Assembly: GCA_903930515.1 (NCBI GenBank)
Contig: CAIYYW010000077.1
Coordinates: 1 to 9,570, forward strand
Length of the DNA stretch: 9,570 bases
DNA from: an uncultured delta proteobacterium
GTDB lineage: Bacteria; RBG-13-61-14; DRUE01
Direction: 5' to 3'
Position numbers and translations under genes: made by a program. Each line of letters opens with the position of its first letter. Position 1 is the stretch's first letter. Shown here piece after piece: positions 1-9,509 of this stretch. The notes under the pieces are model-generated. The model was not told where the DNA came from, made no database searches, and was given only the letters and a program-made list of their open reading frames with translations.

Positions 1-1082
1 AGGCGAACCGGAACCTGGAGCACAAGCTGGAAGAGTTGCAGGAGGGCGTGCTGGAAGTGAGGATGGTTCCGATCGGGCAGATTTACGACAAGCTCCGCAG
101 GAATGTGCGCAAGCTCGCGCGCGAGACCGGCAAGGAGATCAACTTTATCGCGGAAGGCGGCGAGACCGAGCTGGACAAGCTGATCATCGAGGACCTGGCG
201 GACCCGCTGATGCACATCATCCGGAATTCAATTGACCACGGGATTGAAACCAAAGAAAAAAGGGTCAGCCAGGGCAAGTCCGAGCAGGGAGAGATCAAGC
301 TGAGCGCGCTCCAGCGCGGAAACCATGTCGTGATCGAGATCAGCGATGACGGGGCCGGGCTGGATTTCCCCCGGATAAAAAAGCAGGCGGTGAAAATGGG
401 TTTGCTCGGAGCGGACCAGGAGGTCAAGGAGGAAGACCTGACCCAGCTATTGTTCTTGTCCGGGTTCTCGACCGCGGAAAAGGTGAGCGAGCTTTCCGGA
501 CGCGGCGTGGGGCTGGATGTGGTCAAGAACAATATCGGCGCCCTGAGCGGAGCGATTGATGTTGAAAGCCGTCCGGGCAAAAGCACCAAGGTGATCATCA
601 CCCTGCCGATCACGCTCGCGATCATCCAGGCCCTGATCGTGGAAGTGGGCAAGGAGACCTTCGCCATCCCCCTTAACGCGGTATCCTCCGGAATCGCCGT
701 GAAGCTGGAAGAGATCAAGACCATTGAAGGCAGGGAAGTGATTGAGCTCCGCGAGCGGACTTTGCCCCTGCTCCGGCTGGAAAAATTTTTCAAGCTCAGC
801 TCCGGGACCAAGCCGGGCCAGGAGGATGACATTTATATCGTTACCGTGGGGATCGCCGAGCGCCGGATCGGACTGGTGGTGGACCGGCTGCTGGGCAGGC
901 AGGACATCGTGATCAAAAGCATCGGGGAGGTGCTGGCCGGGATCAAAGGCGTGGCCGGAGCCACCGAGCTGGGCGATCAGCGAACCATCCTGGTCTTGGA
1001 TGTGGTAGGCTTGATTGAAGAATCGTCCAGCGCCCGGATTACCGGCCGGATCAGCGTGGGAGCGCGTAACCATGTATCTTGA
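1..1082 (+). CDS. cheA: Chemotaxis histidine kinase CheA, 5'-truncated by the window edge
   Basis: This is the C-terminal part of the CheA kinase, which passes phosphate from its P1 histidine to CheY and CheB. The reading frame is open from base 3 with no start, so the gene begins upstream and the P1 (phospho-His) and P2 regions are not visible. What is seen: the end of the P3 dimerisation helix with the typical EVRMVPI motif (about 54-74); the HATPase domain with N box RNSIDHGIE (about 222-248), G1 box DDGAGLD (345-365) and G2 box GRGVGLD (498-518); and a CheW-like P5 regulatory domain starting at LPITLAIIQAL (about 600-1020). All ATP-binding motifs look intact, so the kinase should be active. 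A short tail of about 18 residues follows P5. The stop codon overlaps the next gene by 11 bp, which suggests translational coupling. Confidence 0.96.
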   Translation, partial: ANRNLEHKLEELQEGVLEVRMVPIGQIYDKLRRNVRKLARETGKEINFIAEGGETELDKLIIEDLADPLMHIIRNSIDHGIETKEKRVSQGKSEQGEIKLSALQRGNHVVIEISDDGAGLDFPRIKKQAVKMGLLGADQEVKEEDLTQLLFLSGFSTAEKVSELSGRGVGLDVVKNNIGALSGAIDVESRPGKSTKVIITLPITLAIIQALIVEVGKETFAIPLNAVSSGIAVKLEEIKTIEGREVIELRERTLPLLRLEKFFKLSSGTKPGQEDDIYIVTVGIAERRIGLVVDRLLGRQDIVIKSIGEVLAGIKGVAGATELGDQRTILVLDVVGLIEESSSARITGRISVGARNHVS

Positions 1083-1926
1083 ATTTTACGGATTGAAGGA
1101 TAAGCCGTTCGGAAAAACCCCGGACCCGGAAATGCTCTTCCTCTCCCGGCGCCACGAGGAAGCCCTGGCGCGGATGGAGCAGGCGGTGGAAGACCGGGAG
1201 CTTTTGCTTTTGACCGGAGAGATCGGGTCGGGAAAAACCACCCTGAGCCGGGCGCTGATTGACCGGCTGCCTGAGAATTTCAAGCCCTGCCTGATCATCA
1301 ATCCCAGGCTCAGCCCGAACCAGTTGCTCCGGACCGTGTCCAGAAGGCTGGGCGCGGAAGAGCCGAAATATTTCAAGAGCGACCTGGTTGAACAGATTTT
1401 TGAGCTCCTGTTCCAGCACTACCATAACGGGATTTGCCCGGTATTGATCATTGACGAGGCGCATTTGATCCCGAGCCGGGAAACTTTTGAGGAAGTGAGA
1501 TTGCTCACCAATTGTCAACTGGACAAGGAAAACCTGGTCAGCATTATCCTGATCGGACAGCCCGAGTTGAACCAGCGGCTTTCCCACCCGGTGTATCAGG
1601 CATTGCGGCAAAGGGTCGGGATCCGCTATCACCTGGCCGGGCTGGCGCGGGAAGAATTGCCCGAGTACCTGGAATTCCGGCTGAAGAAGGCCGGGAGGGA
1701 AAAAAACCTGTTTGCGCCCGAGGCGATTGAGGCGATCTGGGTTTTCTCCGGTGGAATTCCACGGCGGATCAACAATATCGCGGCCAACGCCCTGATTGAG
1801 GGTTTTGCCCGCGAGGTCAAGCTGATCCAGCCTAGGATCATTGAAGATGTGGCCGAAGACCTGGGCCTGGAAAAGATGATTGAAGTGAAAGATCAAAAGA
1901 CCAACGCGGTTCGGAAAGCGGGATAA
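1072..1926 (+). CDS. ExeA/GspA-type AAA ATPase in che operon
   Basis: A 284-residue P-loop ATPase. The opening MYLEFYGLKDKPFGKTPDP is the hallmark N-terminus of the ExeA/GspA family. Walker A GEIGSGKTT is at residues 49-57, Walker B VLIIDEAH at 124-131, a sensor-like IILIGQPEL at 158-166, and a likely Arg-finger segment ALRQRVGIRYHL at 177-188. The start is ATG 1072, because the longer frame from TTG 1015 only adds residues unlike the family; GGGAG at 1058-1062 lies 9 nt upstream. ExeA proteins known from type II secretion carry a membrane anchor and a peptidoglycan-binding C-terminus. This protein ends after the AAA lid, with no transmembrane segment or such domain visible, so it is probably cytoplasmic. 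It sits between cheA and cheW, overlapping cheA by 11 bp. Its role is unknown; positioning or assembly of the array is an inference. TniB/IstB-like transposition ATPases are related but no transposase is nearby. Confidence 0.88.
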   Translation: MYLEFYGLKDKPFGKTPDPEMLFLSRRHEEALARMEQAVEDRELLLLTGEIGSGKTTLSRALIDRLPENFKPCLIINPRLSPNQLLRTVSRRLGAEEPKYFKSDLVEQIFELLFQHYHNGICPVLIIDEAHLIPSRETFEEVRLLTNCQLDKENLVSIILIGQPELNQRLSHPVYQALRQRVGIRYHLAGLAREELPEYLEFRLKKAGREKNLFAPEAIEAIWVFSGGIPRRINNIAANALIEGFAREVKLIQPRIIEDVAEDLGLEKMIEVKDQKTNAVRKAG

Positions 1927-1929
1927 AAA

Positions 1930-2985
1930 ATGGACCTGGTGGAAGCAAGAAAGAAAGCCAAAGAGCTCCAGGAGAAGAAGCAGGAAACCCCTGCGGCCAA
2001 GCCGGTAATGGAAAAGCCGGAAAGCCCGGCCCTGGAAAAGCCATCGGCCAAGAAAGTCCCGGGAAAAAAGAAAAGACCGGGGCCTGAAGCCAAAGCCCGG
2101 CCCGCGGCAAAAAAGACCGAGGCCAAAAAAGCGAAGGCCGGGAAAAAAACGGAGCCGGTCCCGGTGAAGAAGGCCAAAGCTGAAAAAACGGGTGGATTGC
2201 CGGAGCCGAAGCCGGCCGCAAAACCCGCTCCAACCCCTCCGGCCAAAACCGAGCCGGCGCCTACGGAAGAACTTTTTGTGGATATGAACTTCGGGGAAGA
2301 TTTGCCGGACCTGACGGCAAAAGAAAAAAAGCCGGCCCGGGAAGAGAAACGCGGGGAAGCGCCGAAGCAAAAACAGGAAGCGATCTCGGAAAAGAAGGTT
2401 GAAAAACAGCAGGCGCCGGCGAAGTCGTCCGAGCTTGCCCCGCCTGCGGTTTTGGAGCCGGATTCGGATAAGGATTTTTACGAACTGGTGGTGGAAGACC
2501 TGGTGCAGTACGGCTATGGGGAAATAGAGTCGGAAGCGGACCTGGTTGAGCTGTTGGGACTCCGGCTGGGAAGCGAGATTTACGCGATCTCCCTGGTCAA
2601 GATCCAGCAGATCATCAAGCCGCGCTCAATCACTTTGGTGCCGGGATCTCCTCATTATGTGCTCGGGATCGTCTCGCTCCGGGGAATGGTAATCCCGATC
2701 TTTGACCTGAGAAAGAGGCTGGGACTGGAGCCGGTTCAGCCCACCCGCCAGACCCGGATCATTATTGTCAAGGTCAAAGATAGCGTGCTGGCCGGACTCT
2801 ATGTGGACCAGGTCCTGGAAGTGGCGCGCGTTCCCCAAAGCTCGTTTGAGGCCCCCCACTCCATTTTCAGCGGAGCCGAGGGGGAATTCTTAGAGGGGAT
2901 CGCCCGATATAAGAACCAGATGCTGATCGTGCTCAACCTGGCAAATGTTGTTCTGGGCAAAGAAGAAGAAAGAAAGGCTGGATAA
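1930..2985 (+). CDS. cheW: CheW-domain protein with long Lys/Ala/Pro-rich N-terminal arm
   Basis: A 351-residue adaptor, about twice the usual CheW length. Residues 206-345 are a CheW domain: LGLRLGSEIYAISLVKIQQI, then GIVSLRGMVIPIFDLRKRLG (246-265), then the second barrel with GLYVDQVLEV. CheW couples receptors to CheA P5. Residues 1-175 are low complexity and look disordered: strongly basic at 41-86 (KKVPGKKKRP, AAKKTEAKKAKAGKK), resembling histone H1 tails, then Pro/Ala-rich, then mixed-charge. An acidic stretch (about 177-204, with PDSDKDFYELVVEDL) precedes the domain. The gene starts 3 nt after the ATPase stop, with only a weak ribosome site, so it is probably translated by coupling. The arm could bind nucleic acid or act as a flexible tether; neither is proven. 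The CheW assignment is sure, the arm's role is not. Confidence 0.92.
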   Translation: MDLVEARKKAKELQEKKQETPAAKPVMEKPESPALEKPSAKKVPGKKKRPGPEAKARPAAKKTEAKKAKAGKKTEPVPVKKAKAEKTGGLPEPKPAAKPAPTPPAKTEPAPTEELFVDMNFGEDLPDLTAKEKKPAREEKRGEAPKQKQEAISEKKVEKQQAPAKSSELAPPAVLEPDSDKDFYELVVEDLVQYGYGEIESEADLVELLGLRLGSEIYAISLVKIQQIIKPRSITLVPGSPHYVLGIVSLRGMVIPIFDLRKRLGLEPVQPTRQTRIIIVKVKDSVLAGLYVDQVLEVARVPQSSFEAPHSIFSGAEGEFLEGIARYKNQMLIVLNLANVVLGKEEERKAG

Positions 2986-2988
2986 ATA

Positions 2989-3474
2989 ATGGGGGAAGTC
3001 AAGGGAAAATCAAAGGAAATCCGGCTCGCCTGTTTCACCCTGAACGAGCAGAGCTATGCCATTGACATAATGAAAATCAGGCAGATCATCCGGCCCACTA
3101 AAATCCGGCCCCTGCCGGAAGCGCCCAACTTCGTGGAGGGCGTGATCAGTCTCCGGGGGGCGGTGATCCCGATCATTGACCTGCGCAAGCGGTTCGGGAT
3201 TGAGATCAAGCCGGACAAGGAGCCGAGGGTGATCATTGTCAGCGTGGAGCGGCAGGTGGTCGGGATCGTGGTGGACGAGGTGAGCGAAGTGATCAATGTT
3301 TCCGCCGAACAGATCCAGCCCCCGCCCAGGCTGAGCGGAATCCCCAGCCGATTCCTCTCCGGCGCCTGCCAGTGGAAAGACGATATTCTGTTGATCCTGA
3401 AGCTGGACCAGATTTTGACCAGCGAGGAAAAATTGAGTCTGGCCGAACTTAAAAAACCGACGGGAAAGGAGTAA
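2989..3474 (+). CDS. cheW: Chemotaxis coupling protein CheW (standard length)
   Basis: A 161-residue single-domain CheW, the usual length for the family, acting as the cytoplasmic bridge between receptors and the CheA P5 domain. The domain fills residues 10-145: IRLACFTLNEQSYAIDIMKI, the signature GVISLRGAVIPIIDLRKRFG (51-70), VVGIVVDEVSEVI (90-102) and a final DDILLILKLDQIL (131-143). It starts 3 nt after the preceding CheW gene, with AAAGG at 2973-2977 as a modest ribosome site. It resembles the CheW domain of that neighbour (both have the ISLRG..IPI.DLRKR core and the QIIRP/QIIKP motif), so the pair could stem from a duplication followed by gain of the arm in one copy. The two probably occupy different positions in, or have different partners within, one array. 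Confidence 0.96.
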   Translation: MGEVKGKSKEIRLACFTLNEQSYAIDIMKIRQIIRPTKIRPLPEAPNFVEGVISLRGAVIPIIDLRKRFGIEIKPDKEPRVIIVSVERQVVGIVVDEVSEVINVSAEQIQPPPRLSGIPSRFLSGACQWKDDILLILKLDQILTSEEKLSLAELKKPTGKE

Positions 3475-3476
3475 AA

Positions 3477-4793
3477 ATGATAGTTTTATGTCCGAAATGC
3501 AAAACCAAATACCGGGTGGATGAAAATAAAATAGGCCCGGATGGGGTCAAACTGCGTTGCTCCCAGTGTCAGATCGTTTTCAAGGTCGCCAAAAGGACTC
3601 CGGCTCAGGCCGCCCCGTCGCCTCAGCCGCAGGCCCGCCCTGCTCCGGCGCCCGTGCCCTCCCCGGCCCGGCCCGCGCCGGCTCCGGCTCCGGCCGCGGC
3701 TCCGGCGGTCACCGGCCCGATGGTTCCGCAGGGCGAGGTTAAAGCGGAATTGTTGTTGGCGGACGCGGACGAAATTTTCTTGAACAAGATCGGAGACGAA
3801 CTGGTAGCCGCCGGATATCTGGTCTGGTACGCGAGAGACGGTGAAACCGCCTTGAATTTCATCCGGGAAAAGAGGCCCAAGGCCGCGATCCTGGAAGTGA
3901 TGCTCCCCGGTCTGTTCGGGTTTGAAGTATGCGAGAAAATCAAGGAAGACCCCGAACTGTCGCAACTGGTCAAGCTGGTATTGATCGGATCGGTATATGA
4001 AAAAAACCGGTTTCGGAGAGCGCCCACAACTTTGTATGGCGCGGACGCCTATGTGGACAAGTATCATAATGAAAAAGAGGTTTTGAAAAAGGTGGAGATC
4101 TTGCTCGGGTTTGCCGTGGAAGAGCCGGCGCCCGAAGAGGAACCGTCGGAAGCAACTCCGGAAATCGCGGCCGCTCCGACCCCGCCTCCGCCGACCCCGC
4201 CTTCGGCCAGGCCGGCCCCGGCTCCAACCCTGAAAATTCAGGCTCCACCGGCCCGGCCCGCGCCCGCGGCTCCGAAACCCGCGCCGCCCCCTGCCCCGGC
4301 CAGGCTGGCCGCGCCTGCCCCGCGAGTTACCCAGCCGGTTAGCCCGCCTCCGGCGCCAAAAGCCGTGCCCAGGCCCGCAATCCCGGCCCCGGTTCCGCCA
4401 CCCGCATCCCCAAGACCGGTTCCGCCACCACGCCCCGCGCCCCCGGCTCCGGTCAAACCCGCGGCGCCTCCTGCTCCGCCTTTGCCCGCTCCCGCGGCTC
4501 CGCCTGCAACGGGCGTGGATTGGACCAAGTTGGTCCCGGATACTCCCGAGCATAAGAAGGCGGCCCGGCTCGCGAGAACCATTGTCGCGGATATCGCCCT
4601 GTACAATCCCGACCTGGTGGAACGAGGGGTTCGGGAAGGAACCCTTTTCCAACTGCTCGCCAAGGATATTGAAGATGGGAGAAAACATTTTCAAACCAAG
4701 GCCGGCCCGGAGATTATGGCGGTAGCGGATTATTATCAGTTGGCCCTGGAAGATGTCATCGCGAAAAAGAAGAAGAAGCTCGGCCTGGAGTGA
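3477..4793 (+). CDS. MJ0042 zinc ribbon plus degenerate receiver plus C-terminal helical module
   Basis: A 438-residue mosaic protein. Residues 1-37 are an MJ0042-type zinc ribbon with CPKC (5-8) and CSQC (28-31) as the four metal ligands. A Pro/Ala linker (about 42-87) leads to a CheY-like receiver fold (90-210). There the usual phospho-acceptor Asp is Glu140 in AAILEVMLPGLFGFEVC; the acidic pocket reads ADADE, so one Asp of the usual DD pair is Ala97. Ser172 (LIGS) and Lys195 (YVDKY) match the other conserved switch positions. A long Pro/Ala-rich linker (about 215-346) leads to a helical C-terminal segment (358-435, HKKAARLARTIVADIALYNP onward). I recall similar segments in other MJ0042 proteins but cannot verify this. 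A strong ribosome site, AAAGGAG, lies at 3465-3471. By position it belongs to the chemosensory pathway; a phosphorylation-independent scaffold is an inference. Confidence 0.85.
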   Translation: MIVLCPKCKTKYRVDENKIGPDGVKLRCSQCQIVFKVAKRTPAQAAPSPQPQARPAPAPVPSPARPAPAPAPAAAPAVTGPMVPQGEVKAELLLADADEIFLNKIGDELVAAGYLVWYARDGETALNFIREKRPKAAILEVMLPGLFGFEVCEKIKEDPELSQLVKLVLIGSVYEKNRFRRAPTTLYGADAYVDKYHNEKEVLKKVEILLGFAVEEPAPEEEPSEATPEIAAAPTPPPPTPPSARPAPAPTLKIQAPPARPAPAAPKPAPPPAPARLAAPAPRVTQPVSPPPAPKAVPRPAIPAPVPPPASPRPVPPPRPAPPAPVKPAAPPAPPLPAPAAPPATGVDWTKLVPDTPEHKKAARLARTIVADIALYNPDLVERGVREGTLFQLLAKDIEDGRKHFQTKAGPEIMAVADYYQLALEDVIAKKKKKLGLE

Positions 4794-4794
4794 G

Positions 4795-6768
4795 ATGGGG
4801 GAAGATCCGAACAACCTGGTCAAAAAAGGGGAAATCTCCAGGCGGCTGCATCATCCGGAGGAAGAAATCCGCCGGCTGGCGGTTGACGAGCTCAAGCGCC
4901 GTCACGGGGCGGAGAACCTCGCGCTCCTGAGCGAGGGATTGGGCGATTTGAGCTGGCGGGTGCGGAAGACCGCGATTGATGTGATCGTGAATTACCCGGA
5001 CCAGAAATCCTCGACCGCGATCCTGATCAATGCCCTGTATGACCACGAGAACGCGGGACGGCGCACCAGCGCGATTGAGGCCCTGATCCGGATGGGAGAG
5101 CGGTCGGTGGATGAGTTGCTTCAGGCCTGCCAGACCTATGACCCGGAGGTGCGAAAATTTCTCCTGGACATTTTGGGAGAAGTCCGCCACCCCAAGTCGC
5201 TCCCCTGCGTGCTCAAGAACCTGGACGACCCGGATGAAAATGTCCGGCTGGCCGCGGTGGAGGCCCTGGGCAAGATCGGCGGCCAGGAGGCGGACAAGAA
5301 ATTGATGGAGCTGATCAATTCCGGGAATGATCTGGTGATCCGGTTCAGCGCCCTGCATCTCCTGGGCAAATCCGGAAAGCCTTTTCCGGCCGGGATGGTT
5401 GAAAGGCTGCTCAAGGAAAGATTGTTCCGCCGCGCCGTGTTTGAAGTTCTGGGAGGAAGTTCCGATCCTCAAAGCGTCAGCTTCCTCCTGGAAGGGATCG
5501 CGGACAGCGCCAAGAGCGCCCGCCAGGCTGCGATCCATTCGATGACCCGGATTTACGAGAAAGATCAGGCCGGGAACCTGCGGCCGCAGATTGAGCAAGG
5601 TCTCCGGAAGATTTTCAATCATAAGAACCTAAGCTTGCTCGTGGAATTCATTGAGGGTGATCATGCCCATACCCGCCGGAATGTGCTGACCCTGTTATCC
5701 TTGCTGGACCTCGAGCAATCGCTGCATTATCTGTTTTCGCTCAGCCTGAACGATTCCCTTTCCGAAGATTTGGCCGCGAACCTGGAGCGGATCAGGCAGC
5801 GCCGTCCGGATTGGTTCAAGAAGCAGTTGAAGGGGGAAGTTTCGGAAATAAAGGAAGCGGTCAAGCATCTGCTCAAGGAGGAAGAAGGGATTCTGTCTCT
5901 GACCGAGGAGGCCAAACCGCAGTTGAGCGAGGCGGAGTTCAGCCTGATCCGGGACCGGATCAGCCTGAGCTACGGCATCTTCTTTGACCTGGAAATGAAA
6001 TATCTGGTGGAACGAAGGATCGCCCAGCGCATGCATCAACTGGGGGATCGGAGATTTTCCGATTACCTGATCCGGCTGGAGAACTCGGTCAGCGGACAGG
6101 AAGAGTTGAATGAGCTGACCCGGCTCCTGGTCAATAACGAGACCTATTTTTTCCGCGAAGATTTTCAGCTCCAGACTTTTTCCGAAGAAATTATGCCTGA
6201 GCTGATTGAAAGCGCGCGCCAGGAAGGGAGGGAAAGCATCCGGATCTGGAGCGCCGGCTGTTCCAGCGGGGAAGAGCCATACACCATCGCGATGCTGATC
6301 GCGGAACGGAAGGACCTGGGAAAACTTAAGGTGGAAATTTACGGCTCGGACTTGAGCGAGGAGATGATCAAAAAGGCCGGCCAGGGGGTTTACGGCCCCA
6401 GTTCCTTTCGGGTGATTGACGAATATCATTTCAAAAAATATTTCTCCGCCTCCGGACACAAGTTTCAAGTCCAGGACCAGCTCCGGAAGATGGTTCAGTT
6501 TGATTGCCTCAACCTCCTCAGCTTCGGATATCCCGCCCCGCTCCGGAACCTGGATGTGATCTTCTGCCGGAATGTCCTGATCTATTTCAGCCTGGAGGCC
6601 AAGCGGGCCTTGGTGGAAAGGTTCTATCAAAGCCTGCGCTGGGGAGGATTCCTCCTGCTCGGCCACTCGGAAAGCCTGCTCAACCTGTCCACCGCTTTCC
6701 GGCTCCGTCATTTTAAAAACGACCTGGTTCATCAGAAACCGCCGCTGGAGGATAGCCGTGGGAAATGA
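4795..6768 (+). CDS. cheR: HEAT-repeat/CheR fusion, chemoreceptor methyltransferase
   Basis: A 657-residue protein. Residues about 15-345 are HEAT-like helical repeats, seen in recurring DPDENVRLAAVEALGKIG (145-162) and LSWRVRKTAIDVI (52-64) units. Residues about 378-650 are a complete CheR, which methylates receptor glutamates using S-adenosylmethionine. CheR marks: NNETYFFRE (447-455), the SAM loop WSAGCSSGEEPYTIA (485-499), YGSDLSEEMI (516-525), FDCLNLL (569-575), DVIFCRNVLIYF (587-598) and GHSES (623-627). Ordinary CheR is about 280 residues, so the HEAT half is an extra binding platform. I chose ATG 4795, 1 nt past the previous stop with GGAG at 4787-4790, over the in-frame ATG 4753, which lies inside the upstream gene and would add 14 basic residues unlike a family start. 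The stop overlaps cheB by 11 bp. Confidence 0.93.
   Translation: MGEDPNNLVKKGEISRRLHHPEEEIRRLAVDELKRRHGAENLALLSEGLGDLSWRVRKTAIDVIVNYPDQKSSTAILINALYDHENAGRRTSAIEALIRMGERSVDELLQACQTYDPEVRKFLLDILGEVRHPKSLPCVLKNLDDPDENVRLAAVEALGKIGGQEADKKLMELINSGNDLVIRFSALHLLGKSGKPFPAGMVERLLKERLFRRAVFEVLGGSSDPQSVSFLLEGIADSAKSARQAAIHSMTRIYEKDQAGNLRPQIEQGLRKIFNHKNLSLLVEFIEGDHAHTRRNVLTLLSLLDLEQSLHYLFSLSLNDSLSEDLAANLERIRQRRPDWFKKQLKGEVSEIKEAVKHLLKEEEGILSLTEEAKPQLSEAEFSLIRDRISLSYGIFFDLEMKYLVERRIAQRMHQLGDRRFSDYLIRLENSVSGQEELNELTRLLVNNETYFFREDFQLQTFSEEIMPELIESARQEGRESIRIWSAGCSSGEEPYTIAMLIAERKDLGKLKVEIYGSDLSEEMIKKAGQGVYGPSSFRVIDEYHFKKYFSASGHKFQVQDQLRKMVQFDCLNLLSFGYPAPLRNLDVIFCRNVLIYFSLEAKRALVERFYQSLRWGGFLLLGHSESLLNLSTAFRLRHFKNDLVHQKPPLEDSRGK
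6747..6751 (+). promoter_or_regulatory. Ribosome binding site deciding the GTG start of cheB
   Basis: GGAGG, 6 nt before GTG 6758, lies inside the last codons of cheR. It is among the strongest Shine-Dalgarno matches in the operon and fixes the non-ATG start of cheB. Confidence 0.75.
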
Positions 6769-7813
6769 TGTAATCAGTGTGTTGGTGGTTGACGACTCGG
6801 TTTATAATAGACGGATGCTGAGCGAGATTATTGACCAGACCGGATTTGCCAAGGTGGTGGCGGTGGCCCGGGACGGCGAGGAGGGTTTGAAAAAGGTTTT
6901 TGATCTCCGGCCCGACCTGATCACCCTGGACCTGGAAATGCCCCATATGGACGGTTTCACTTTCCTCCGGATCCTGATGAAGAGCATGCCCACCCCGGTG
7001 GTGGTGGTGAGTTCGCTGGCGGAAGACCGGAATGTGTTCAAGGCGCTGGAGCTGGGCGCGCTTGATTTTGTGGGCAAGCCGGACACCAAGCTTTCCACCA
7101 TTGAGCAGTTCCAGAAAGACCTGATCCAGAAATTGGCGATGACCCGTCATATCCGGATGCGCAATATCCAGCGCCGGATCAGCCAGCAAGTGGTGACCCA
7201 GTTGGGGATCGCCCCGGTGGTCAAGCCCGCGGAAGCGGTCGCGCGCAAAGTGGAATTGGTCGCGATCGGCGCCAGCACCGGGGGCCCCAGCGCGATCCAG
7301 AGCATCCTCTCGCGGTTCCCCGCGGATTTGAACGCCGGGATCGCGGTCAGCCAGCATATGCCGTCCGGGTTCACCAAGGCCTTTGCCGAGCGGCTGGACC
7401 GGATCAGCAAGCTGACGGTCAAGGAAGCGGAGCCGGGCGATTTTATGGAAAAAGGGAAAGTGTTGATCTCGCCGGGGGGAAAGAATTTGATCCTGGCCAG
7501 ACAGGGTAGTAAAGTAGTGGCAAGACTGGAAGAGCGGGCCGAAAGCGACCGTTACATCCCGAGCGTGGACAAATTGTTCAAGAGCGCCGCGGGCGTCTAC
7601 GGTTCCCGGATGATGGCGGTGGTCCTGACCGGGATGGGCTCGGACGGAAAAGAGGGGGTCCTGGCGGTGAAGCGGGCAGGCGGTTTCGTGATCGCCGAAT
7701 CGGAAAAGACCAGCATCGTCTTCGGGATGCCAAGGGAGGCGATTGAGACGCACCAGGTGGACCGGGTGGCGAACCTGGAGGAAATTTCAGGAGAGATTTT
7801 AAAATTCTGTTAG
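6758..7813 (+). CDS. cheB: Chemotaxis methylesterase/deamidase CheB
   Basis: A 351-residue, full-length CheB, which removes receptor methyl groups when phosphorylated by CheA. The N-terminal receiver (1-125) has the acidic pair Asp12/Asp13, the phospho-acceptor Asp58 in DLITLDLEMPHMDG, Ser85/Ser86 at the switch position and Lys107 in VGKP. A linker (about 126-163) joins the esterase domain (164-350), whose catalytic triad is visible as Ser173 (GASTGG), His200 (SQHMP) and Asp296 (GMGSDG). Nothing essential is missing. The start is GTG 6758, supported by GGAGG at 6747-6751 with a 6-nt spacing, and by the onset of the receiver soon after. The 11-bp overlap with cheR means methylase and esterase are probably translationally coupled. 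Confidence 0.97.
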   Translation: MGNDVISVLVVDDSVYNRRMLSEIIDQTGFAKVVAVARDGEEGLKKVFDLRPDLITLDLEMPHMDGFTFLRILMKSMPTPVVVVSSLAEDRNVFKALELGALDFVGKPDTKLSTIEQFQKDLIQKLAMTRHIRMRNIQRRISQQVVTQLGIAPVVKPAEAVARKVELVAIGASTGGPSAIQSILSRFPADLNAGIAVSQHMPSGFTKAFAERLDRISKLTVKEAEPGDFMEKGKVLISPGGKNLILARQGSKVVARLEERAESDRYIPSVDKLFKSAAGVYGSRMMAVVLTGMGSDGKEGVLAVKRAGGFVIAESEKTSIVFGMPREAIETHQVDRVANLEEISGEILKFC

Positions 7814-7825
7814 ATCGGGAGTTGA

Positions 7826-8689
7826 ATGATGGGAGAAGAAAAGCGGTTGGAAGACAAACTCAAGGCGTTGCAAAAGCTGGCCACCAGCGACGAAGCCGGA
7901 GAAATCCTGGAAATGGTCAACCGGGGGATGGAGTTCACCAAGGAAATACTGGGAGAGAATGAGCGGCTCCGGTTCCGGATGGTTCAGCTCCAGGAGGAGA
8001 TCCAGGAATTGGGACAACTCTCCGAGCGCAAGCAGCTCCAGGTCCGGCTCAAGGAAGAGTTGCGCCGGCTGGAGATGGAGAAGCAGAGACTGCTGGGCGA
8101 GTATCAGAAGGTGGAAGCCCAAAACCGGGAATACGCCACGCGCTATGTGGAGGTGGAGGAGGAGAACAATAATCTGGCCAATTTATATGTCTGTTCCTAT
8201 CAACTACATTCCACCCTGGATTTCCACGAAGTGCTCCAGATAATTATGGAGATCATCATCAACCTGATCGGAGCCGAGGAATTCGGGATCCTACTGCTTG
8301 ACGAAAAAACCCGGCTCCTGCACCCGGTGGCGATGGAAGGAAGGGAGGTCGGAGCGGTTCCGACTTTCCCGCTCGGGGAGGGCATGGTGGGGAGATGCGC
8401 GGAGACCGGGGAGAACTATTATGCCCCGGACATTTCCCAAACCCAGCAGAGCCGTTCGGTGGATTCTCCGTTGGTGGCGATCCCGCTCAAGATCAAGGAC
8501 CAGGTGATCGGGGTGATCGTGCTGTTCAAGCTGCTCCCGCAAAAAACCCAGTTCGCAAATGTGGACTACGAACTGTTCACGCTGTTAGCCGGACATGCCG
8601 CCACTGCAATTTTCTCTTCCCGGCTCTATACCGAGGCGCAGAGAAAACTGACCACGATCAAGGGTTTTATGGAGCTTTTGACTCATTGA
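7826..8689 (+). CDS. Coiled-coil plus GAF domain protein
   Basis: A 287-residue soluble protein. Residues about 30-118 are rich in Glu, Arg, Lys, Leu and Gln in a heptad-like pattern (QLQEEIQELGQ, KEELRRLEMEKQRLL), predicting a long coiled coil. Residues about 127-270 form a GAF domain: STLDFHEVLQIIMEIIINLI, FGILLLDEKTRLLHPVA, FPLGEGMVGRCAETGE (181-196), SPLVAIPLKIKDQVIGVIVL (214-233) and the last helix FTLLAGHAATAI. GAF domains bind small ligands or mediate dimerisation; the ligand here cannot be told. The last 17 residues (RKLTTIKGFMELLTH) resemble the part of a HisKA helix that follows the phospho-His, but no His or ATPase domain is present. GGGAG (7817-7821) is 4 nt from ATG 7826 and 7 nt from ATG 7829, so the second ATG is an equally good start. 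The gap after cheB is 12 nt, so it probably belongs to the operon. Confidence 0.88.
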   Translation: MMGEEKRLEDKLKALQKLATSDEAGEILEMVNRGMEFTKEILGENERLRFRMVQLQEEIQELGQLSERKQLQVRLKEELRRLEMEKQRLLGEYQKVEAQNREYATRYVEVEEENNNLANLYVCSYQLHSTLDFHEVLQIIMEIIINLIGAEEFGILLLDEKTRLLHPVAMEGREVGAVPTFPLGEGMVGRCAETGENYYAPDISQTQQSRSVDSPLVAIPLKIKDQVIGVIVLFKLLPQKTQFANVDYELFTLLAGHAATAIFSSRLYTEAQRKLTTIKGFMELLTH

Positions 8690-8727: not shown

Positions 8728-9096
8728 GTGAAGATTCTGGTAGTTGAAGATTCGCCGACCATGAGACAGTTGATCAGCTTCGCACTCAAGCGGCTCAAGG
8801 ATATGATGATCGTGGAGGCCGCGGACGGGGTGGAGGGCCTCAAGAAATTGAACTCGGACACCTTTGACCTGATCATCACCGACATCAATATGCCGGTGAT
8901 GGACGGACTCAAGCTGATCAGCCTGGTCCGGAGAGATGTCAAGTATCGGAATATTCCCATTATGATCATCACCACCGAGGGAGGCGCCGAGGACCGGGAA
9001 CGCGCCCTGGCCCTGGGAGCAAACGCCTATGTCACCAAGCCGATCCAGGCGGGAAATGTGATGGAAATAGCCAAAAGCCTCCTCGGGATCCCCTAA
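8728..9096 (+). CDS. cheY: Single-domain response regulator CheY
   Basis: A 122-residue receiver with no output domain, the typical CheY size. All phosphorylation residues are present: Glu7/Asp8 in VVEDS for Mg2+ binding, phospho-acceptor Asp52 in LIITDINMPVMDG, Thr82 in IMIITTEGG, and Lys104 in YVTKP. It is the likely diffusible output of the CheA in this operon, acting on a motor, pilus or other effector encoded elsewhere. The aromatic switch position (Tyr106 in E. coli) corresponds to Tyr101. The gene begins with GTG after a good ribosome site, 38 nt beyond the GAF gene, and has its own candidate promoter. It contrasts with the degenerate receiver earlier in the operon, which lacks the acceptor Asp. 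Confidence 0.95.
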   Translation: MKILVVEDSPTMRQLISFALKRLKDMMIVEAADGVEGLKKLNSDTFDLIITDINMPVMDGLKLISLVRRDVKYRNIPIMIITTEGGAEDRERALALGANAYVTKPIQAGNVMEIAKSLLGIP

Positions 9097-9133
9097 GCCC
9101 TGAATACACCCCAAGAAAATCAAATATCTTTCT

Positions 9134-9165
9134 CACCGCAAAGGCGCAAAGAACGCAAAGAATTC
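9134..9165 (+). repeat. CGCAAAG direct-repeat block 1
   Basis: The block reads CACCGCAAAG, GCGCAAAG, AACGCAAAG then AATTC, that is three tandem CGCAAAG units with short variable joints. It resembles dispersed intergenic repeats known from many environmental bacteria. A perfect hairpin follows at 9173. Confidence 0.75.
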
Positions 9166-9172
9166 TTGGGGG

Positions 9173-9192
9173 CGCGGACACTCCTGTCCGCG
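9173..9192 (+). repeat. Perfect hairpin 1 (8-bp stem)
   Basis: CGCGGACA and TGTCCGCG pair perfectly around the loop CTCC. ATTGAAAC follows rather than a T run, so it is not a standard terminator. Confidence 0.75.
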
Positions 9193-9198
9193 ATTGAA

Positions 9199-9225
9199 AC
9201 GCAAAGGACGCAAAGAAATAAATTG
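9199..9225 (+). repeat. CGCAAAG direct-repeat block 2
   Basis: Two units, ACGCAAAGG and ACGCAAAG, then AAATAAATTG. It is a shorter relative of block 1 and is followed directly by hairpin 2. Confidence 0.65.
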
Positions 9226-9228
9226 GGT

Positions 9229-9247
9229 CCAGGGTCTGCGACCCTGG
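9229..9247 (+). repeat. Perfect hairpin 2 (8-bp stem)
   Basis: CCAGGGTC and GACCCTGG pair perfectly around the loop TGC. The stem sequence is unrelated to hairpin 1, but its place just after a CGCAAAG block is the same. Confidence 0.75.
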
Positions 9248-9268
9248 CCGCAAAGCCGCAAAGAATTC
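9248..9268 (+). repeat. CGCAAAG direct-repeat block 3
   Basis: CCGCAAAG, CCGCAAAG then AATTC. Unlike the other early blocks it is followed by an AT-rich stretch (9269-9300) without a hairpin. Confidence 0.65.
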
Positions 9269-9308
9269 AGAATTATTTTTCTGCTTTTAACGCGAAACAA
9301 TGCATTCT

Positions 9309-9340
9309 CACCGCAGAGCCGCAGAGGCCGCAGAGAATTG
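9309..9340 (+). repeat. CGCAGAG direct-repeat block 4
   Basis: CACCGCAGAG, CCGCAGAG, GCCGCAGAG then AATTG: the same three-unit layout as block 1, with CGCAGAG instead of CGCAAAG throughout, as if the units had been homogenised within the block. Confidence 0.72.
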
Positions 9341-9348
9341 AATTGGGT

Positions 9349-9365
9349 CAAGGGGCACGCCCTTG
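9349..9365 (+). repeat. Perfect hairpin 3 (6-bp stem)
   Basis: CAAGGG and CCCTTG pair around the loop GCACG. It is preceded by AATTGGGT, as hairpin 2 is, so the two repeat-plus-hairpin modules share their joint. Confidence 0.68.
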
Positions 9366-9367
9366 TT

Positions 9368-9391
9368 CCCTCCCCCCGCCGTGGGGGAGGG
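9368..9391 (+). repeat. Perfect hairpin 4 (9-bp C/G stem), CCCTCTCCC-type repeat
   Basis: CCCTCCCCC and GGGGGAGGG pair perfectly around CGCCGT, then TTAGGGAGAGGGGG follows. This resembles the dispersed CCCTCTCCCTAACCCTC-type repeat found in many bacterial genomes. A run of five T follows at about 9407-9411, too far from the stem for a normal terminator. Confidence 0.7.
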
Positions 9392-9411
9392 TTAGGGAGA
9401 GGGGGATTTTT

Positions 9412-9439
9412 CACCGCAAAGCCGCGCCGCAGAGAATTC
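9412..9439 (+). repeat. CGCAAAG direct-repeat block 5
   Basis: CACCGCAAAG, CCGCG, CCGCAGAG then AATTC. It mixes the AAAG and AGAG unit types and has a shortened middle unit. Confidence 0.65.
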
Positions 9440-9453
9440 AAATCATTTTTTAC

Positions 9454-9509
9454 CACAACGACACTACGAATCAAAAGATTATTTTCGTCGTGCCCGTCGT
9501 GTCGTCGTG
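9454..9509. repeat. Imperfect inverted repeat of CACGACG type
   Basis: CACAACGACACTACG (9454-9468) matches the reverse complement of CGTCGTGTCGTCGTG (9495-9509) at 13 of 15 positions, with 26 bases between. Each arm is itself built of short ACGAC units. Confidence 0.6.

Follow-up and report, generated by a model that had tools for sequence, protein, structure and literature searches.

In a window of 9,570 nucleotides from an uncultured delta proteobacterium, the whole stretch of DNA analysed here, we found a chemosensory-operon gene whose product joins a zinc ribbon, a degenerate receiver with glutamate at the phospho-acceptor position, a Pro-rich linker and a RomX-like domain (Table 1). We think it fairly probable that this protein is an adaptor of the chemosensory operon, carrying a phosphorylation-independent docking pseudo-receiver and a RomX module in one chain. 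This protein apparently couples the operon to cell polarity and dispenses with the customary phosphate switch. The order of the domains, the lost acidic pair, the acceptor glutamate, the RomX homology, the operon and the presence of MglA and MglB in the genome are all seen directly in the sequence.

Table 1. Features of the window, with positions counted from its first nucleotide
Feature	Position	Strand	Evidence
CheA, C-terminal part, cut by window edge	3..1082	+	Pfam HATPase_c + CheW
AAA ATPase gene of operon	1072..1926	+	Pfam AAA_22; conserved in operon elsewhere
CheW with long Lys/Pro/Ala-rich N-terminus	1930..2985	+	Pfam CheW
CheW	2989..3474	+	Pfam CheW
Zinc ribbon, pseudo-receiver, Pro-rich linker and RomX-like protein, 438 aa	3477..4793	+	
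MJ0042-type zinc ribbon, residues 1-37	3477..3587	+	Pfam PF13717 E=4.1e-14; TIGR02098 E=3.7e-13
Degenerate receiver domain, residues 90-213	3744..4115	+	Pfam PF00072 E=5.6e-9; family profile
Acidic-pair positions, D96 present, second position A97	3762..3767 (D96 3762, A97 3765)	+	residue/codon check
Glu140 (GAA), phospho-acceptor position	3894..3896	+	residue/codon check
Ser172, switch Thr/Ser position	3990..3992	+	residue/codon check
Lys195, conserved Lys position	4059..4061	+	residue/codon check
Pro/Ala-rich linker, presumably disordered	4116..4517	+	composition
RomX-like helical domain, residues 348-438	4518..4790	+	phmmer, profile and Foldseek to PDB 8zna
HEAT-repeat/CheR fusion, start ATG 4795 just past stop of receiver-RomX gene	4795..6768	+	
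CheB	6758..7813	+	Pfam Response_reg + CheB_methylest
GAF-domain protein	7826..8689	+	Pfam GAF_2
CheY, canonical acceptor (LIITDINMP)	8728..9096	+	Pfam PF00072; sequence

Domain layout and operon setting

The translation of the open reading frame contains ...AELLLADADEIF...KAAILEVMLPGLFGFEV...LVLIGSVYEKNR...AYVDKYH. The GC-rich Pro/Ala codons of this gene most likely account for a long open reading frame on the reverse strand (3486-4823), which we take for a shadow. An earlier sequence-only reading had recognised a zinc-ribbon protein with a receiver, which stands, and had missed the C-terminal RomX domain. Pfam and NCBIfam leave this domain unnamed; the PDB sequence search named it RomX. The domain of the window protein alone matches Myxococcus xanthus RomX (PDB 8zna) at E=2.3e-13 with phmmer, and a profile of 12 C-terminal domains matches it at E=2.2e-29. 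Foldseek of a two-sequence AlphaFold model (pLDDT 77) places 8zna at rank 1 with a probability of 1.00 and a TM of 0.52, at an E-value of only 5.3e-3. By these comparisons the C-terminal domain is a RomX homologue, here fused rather than a stand-alone protein of about 90 residues. Stand-alone RomX-like relatives of that size occur in genomes G035, G044 and G058, probably also in G002, and the window's genome yielded no second RomX-like match at E<=1e-3. Two such small proteins (L185 5599-5877, L186 5200-5487) end in S-[KS]-I-W, a tail absent from the fused form.

The setting had been taken for a phosphorelay operon and is instead a chemosensory (Che) operon. A conserved CheA/CheW/CheR/CheB/CheY neighbourhood surrounds the receiver-RomX gene in 15 of the 19 genomes examined, with HEAT and CheR genes directly after it (15 of 19), and the usual order is CheY-CheA-AAA-CheW-CheW-...-HEAT-CheR-CheB-GAF-CheY. 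The gene lies outside the che operon in 4 of the 19, all in one large phylum. HEAT and CheR form one fused gene in the window and two adjoining genes in most other genomes with the operon. The AAA ATPase gene keeps its position between the CheA and CheW genes in many genomes. Downstream of cheY (9130-9481) are six copies of an irregular CACCGCAAAGGCGCAAAGAACGCAAAG-type repeat; identity to the reference copy is 60-83% for the other five. When not in the che operon, the receiver-RomX gene often adjoins, by eye, the gene of a rhomboid-like membrane protein (L101 7369-8067, L110 5437-6117, L111 6714-7412).

Using M. xanthus MglA (identical to PDB 6hjh) as the query, we found in the window's genome an MglA 76% identical to it, encoded on another contig with MglB adjacent. 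An MglA match is present in 40 of 40 tested carrier genomes versus 16 of 40 non-carriers (Fisher p=8e-10), and in the large phylum alone in 19 of 19 carriers versus 7 of 15 non-carriers (p=4e-4). Since these genomes share ancestry and the controls are unmatched, the co-occurrence of MglA with the receiver-RomX protein is support rather than proof. MglA lies on other contigs; in the neighbourhoods retrieved, none was found by motif next to the receiver-RomX gene. The window's genome also encodes a second MglA-like GTPase of 242 residues with 43% identity (L181 1577-2302). A separate protein in the same genome (C181/L003), whose receiver is intact, carries a VERVAWEVVPELAE helix at its C-terminus; we regard it as RomR-like because this motif matches the residues named in PMC12719032. 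The window protein is not of the RomR type, which combines a receiver and linker with a Glu-rich RomR-C helix bearing invariant Trp and Pro; its own C-terminus is RomX-like.

The receiver pocket in the window and across the family

Residue and codon checks bear out the pocket as first described (3744-4106), namely glutamate at the acceptor, Ala97 in the acidic pair and retained Ser172 and Lys195. Measured against a canonical CheY-like receiver, the domain has lost the acceptor Asp and part of the acidic pair (D96 only, with A97 and E140) and has kept the switch Ser/Thr and the conserved Lys (S172, K195). Its T+1 residue is a bulky Val. Pfam Response_reg matches residues 93-206 at 36.6 bits against a gathering cut-off of 30.2 (E=5.6e-9), and a receiver match that has no acceptor Asp places the domain among the aspartate-less pseudo-receivers. 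AlphaFold, given two sequences, modelled the receiver poorly (pLDDT 58). The sister species (G001/L032, a 'delta proteobacterium' lake-sediment bin) also has glutamate at the acceptor, encoded by GAG versus GAA in the window. Between the two species dN/dS is about 0.14 over the Glu-bearing receiver and similarly low over the zinc ribbon and RomX parts, which indicates that the receiver with Glu140 is under purifying selection. Because of the different codon and the low dN/dS, we take the site to be maintained rather than the product of sequencing error or decay.

Searching small phyla and one large phylum with profiles, we obtained 111 distinct homologues, separated by a score gap (members at or above 87.8 bits, ordinary receivers at or below 80). 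A scan of genome contigs with the receiver alone found just the sister species and distant receivers. The family shares the zinc ribbon, degenerate receiver, Pro-rich linker and helical domain of about 90 residues; the C-terminal domain is present in all except a few incomplete members, a CxxC-type or CxC-type zinc motif occurs at nearly every N-terminus, and at the thresholds used we found one copy per carrier genome.

The sequence-only reading had named aspartate at the acceptor in orthologues as evidence against its proposal, and aspartate is what most of the family carries: 89 of the 111 have Asp, 17 Glu, 4 Gly and 1 Ser, with glutamate recurring in a second clade. The rest of the pocket is degenerate as well. 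Only the 2 members from the window's genus retain an acidic residue at the first position of the acidic pair, the other 108 of 110 homologues having lost it (His in 80); the second position is Asp/Glu in 53, about half of the family. The switch residue is Ser in 94, Ala in 14 and Thr in 3, and the conserved Lys remains in only 44, with Arg in 9. T+1, usually Ala or Gly in true receivers (PMC12632262), is a bulky Ile or Val in 93 of the 111. Judged from this alignment, the pocket is degenerate throughout the family, and Glu140 is one of its states rather than a lone change. The best-conserved surface of the family receiver is the alpha4-beta5 stretch, YDKTRYKRxPxSLYGADDYIEKHH. As this stretch is highly conserved and the pocket is degenerate, we read alpha4-beta5 as a putative docking face retained while the phosphorylation chemistry was lost. 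Of what had been proposed for this domain, a phosphorylation-blind docking module is thus well supported by the acidic pair, the T+1 residue and the alpha4-beta5 face.

Origin of the acceptor glutamate and competing explanations

When the acceptor column is left out of the tree, at least three changes between Glu and not-Glu are required: one falls on the branch leading to the window's genus, and the others lie around a group of 15 members from the large phylum. Placing all Glu sequences in a single clade is rejected (AU p=0.0017, for a group picked after the tree was seen). By this tree, glutamate arose at the acceptor at least twice. The closest outgroup, G002, belongs to the same order; its acceptor is Asp and its acidic pair reads Asn/Ala. 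Because G002 retains Asp without either acidic-pair residue, phosphorylation was probably lost, or the Mg2+ site impaired, before glutamate appeared. The second acidic residue is missing in 17 of 17 Glu members; on the tree, with too few independent events, this association is suggestive and not significant. The conserved Lys is absent from the other 15 Glu proteins, 4 of which have Ala at the Ser position.

These observations bear on whether Glu140 genuinely mimics phospho-Asp, locking the receiver 'on' and keeping the fused RomX constitutively active, as a natural counterpart of RomR D53E. In M. xanthus, the D53E variant of RomR is hyper-reversing and the D53N variant hypo-reversing (PMC3441718). 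Glutamate is the commonest acceptor residue of aspartate-less receivers (PMC12632262), Ser172 and Lys195 are retained in the window's genus and glutamate evolved at least twice. The other Glu proteins, however, have lost the Lys and in part the Ser. A later study, as cited in PMC6428892, found the RomR phospho-site dispensable for reversals, and the 'D' residue was disproved as the source of activity in some pseudo-receivers (PMC12632262). Because G002 has already lost the acidic pair, Asp prevails among relatives and Gly and Ser also occur, the constitutively 'on' state that had been suggested is weakened, and we consider such mimicry unlikely. The variable acceptor and the widely lost acidic pair would also fit a decaying relic in which the acceptor change is neutral drift. 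Against this speak the dN/dS, equally low in all three parts, the strongly conserved alpha4-beta5 motif and the single copy per genome where found, so that decay seems very improbable to us.

A further alternative is that the domain is still phosphorylated, weakly or at another residue; candidates would be Ser172 and, in relatives, the Asp that remains. Of the members with Asp, about half retain an acidic second position, and a pseudo-receiver with Asp may still work as a receiver of lower efficiency (PMC12632262). In the window protein itself neither the acceptor Asp nor the second acidic residue is left, and T+1 is a bulky Val; we hold this explanation to be improbable. In the relatives, weak phosphorylation is conceivable since most retain Asp and about half the acidic second position. 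The adaptor reading, too, has points against it: MglA is common in genomes without a receiver-RomX protein, the receiver-RomX gene is not always in the che operon, and any specific kinship of its receiver with the RomR receiver is only putative.

We hypothesize that, in this adaptor, the RomX domain would bind MglA-GTP as in Myxococcus. The pseudo-receiver may replace the RomR receiver, the normal partner of RomX, by docking on the fused RomX domain, and/or may dock on Che proteins via its conserved alpha4-beta5 face, with the zinc ribbon and linker perhaps helping in tethering. The signal would pass by localisation or protein contacts rather than by phosphate on the pseudo-receiver, the phosphorylated outputs presumably being CheY and CheB. 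In the window's genus, the ancestral Asp would have changed to Glu once Mg2+ binding was already compromised, and Glu140 may keep the receiver in a single conformation by way of Lys195 and Ser172. More tentatively, it is possible that in many deep-branching phyla a chemosensory pathway steers MglA polarity via a single-chain receiver-RomX adaptor, without receiver phosphorylation, in which the acceptor glutamate evolved recurrently as a built-in 'RomR D53E'.

Relation to known polarity proteins and pseudo-receivers

Many phyla encode, within a che operon, a protein in which receiver and RomX are naturally fused; this is direct comparative evidence that the two are linked. The natural acceptor series of Asp, Glu, Gly and Ser offers a means of probing the workings of pseudo-receivers, a 'mystery' in the words of PMC12632262. 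Taken alone, an acceptor glutamate is known and common among pseudo-receivers (PMC12632262). What seems new is the conserved protein that combines zinc ribbon, pseudo-receiver and RomX within a che operon, of which we found no report in the literature searched, where RomX was partly covered.

Among the PDB sequence matches is the FrzS pseudo-receiver of M. xanthus. FrzS, a regulator of polarity and pili, likewise contains a receiver fold; the resemblance to the window receiver is only generic. To our knowledge, FrzS has neither a RomX domain nor a zinc ribbon. With the aspartate-less pseudo-receivers of PMC12632262 the window domain shares a Pfam-recognised receiver match, the loss of the acceptor Asp and second acidic residue, and the commonest replacement, Glu. 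It differs from them in its family's own conserved alpha4-beta5 motif and fixed zinc ribbon/RomX architecture. Bdellovibrio RomR is similarly a RomR-type receiver no longer driven by phosphorylation (PMC6428892), but there the function was lost by N-terminal truncation rather than by a change of acceptor, and the protein is not fused to RomX.

The closest parallel is the polarity module of M. xanthus, where the RomR receiver binds RomX and RomX engages MglA-GTP (PMC12719032). The pair has been described as an MglA GEF (PMC9481161, PMC10329633, PMC11016934), and later work, as cited in PMC12719032, terms it an effector instead. The window protein has a RomX domain homologous by sequence and fold, and a receiver with a Pro-rich linker as in RomR; its genome encodes MglA and MglB, and like the M. 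xanthus module, which is tied to Frz, it is connected with a chemosensory system (PMC3441718). Unlike the M. xanthus proteins, it has a degenerate receiver pocket, lacks the RomR C-terminal helix, holds RomX and receiver covalently in a single chain together with an additional zinc ribbon, and is encoded within a che operon.
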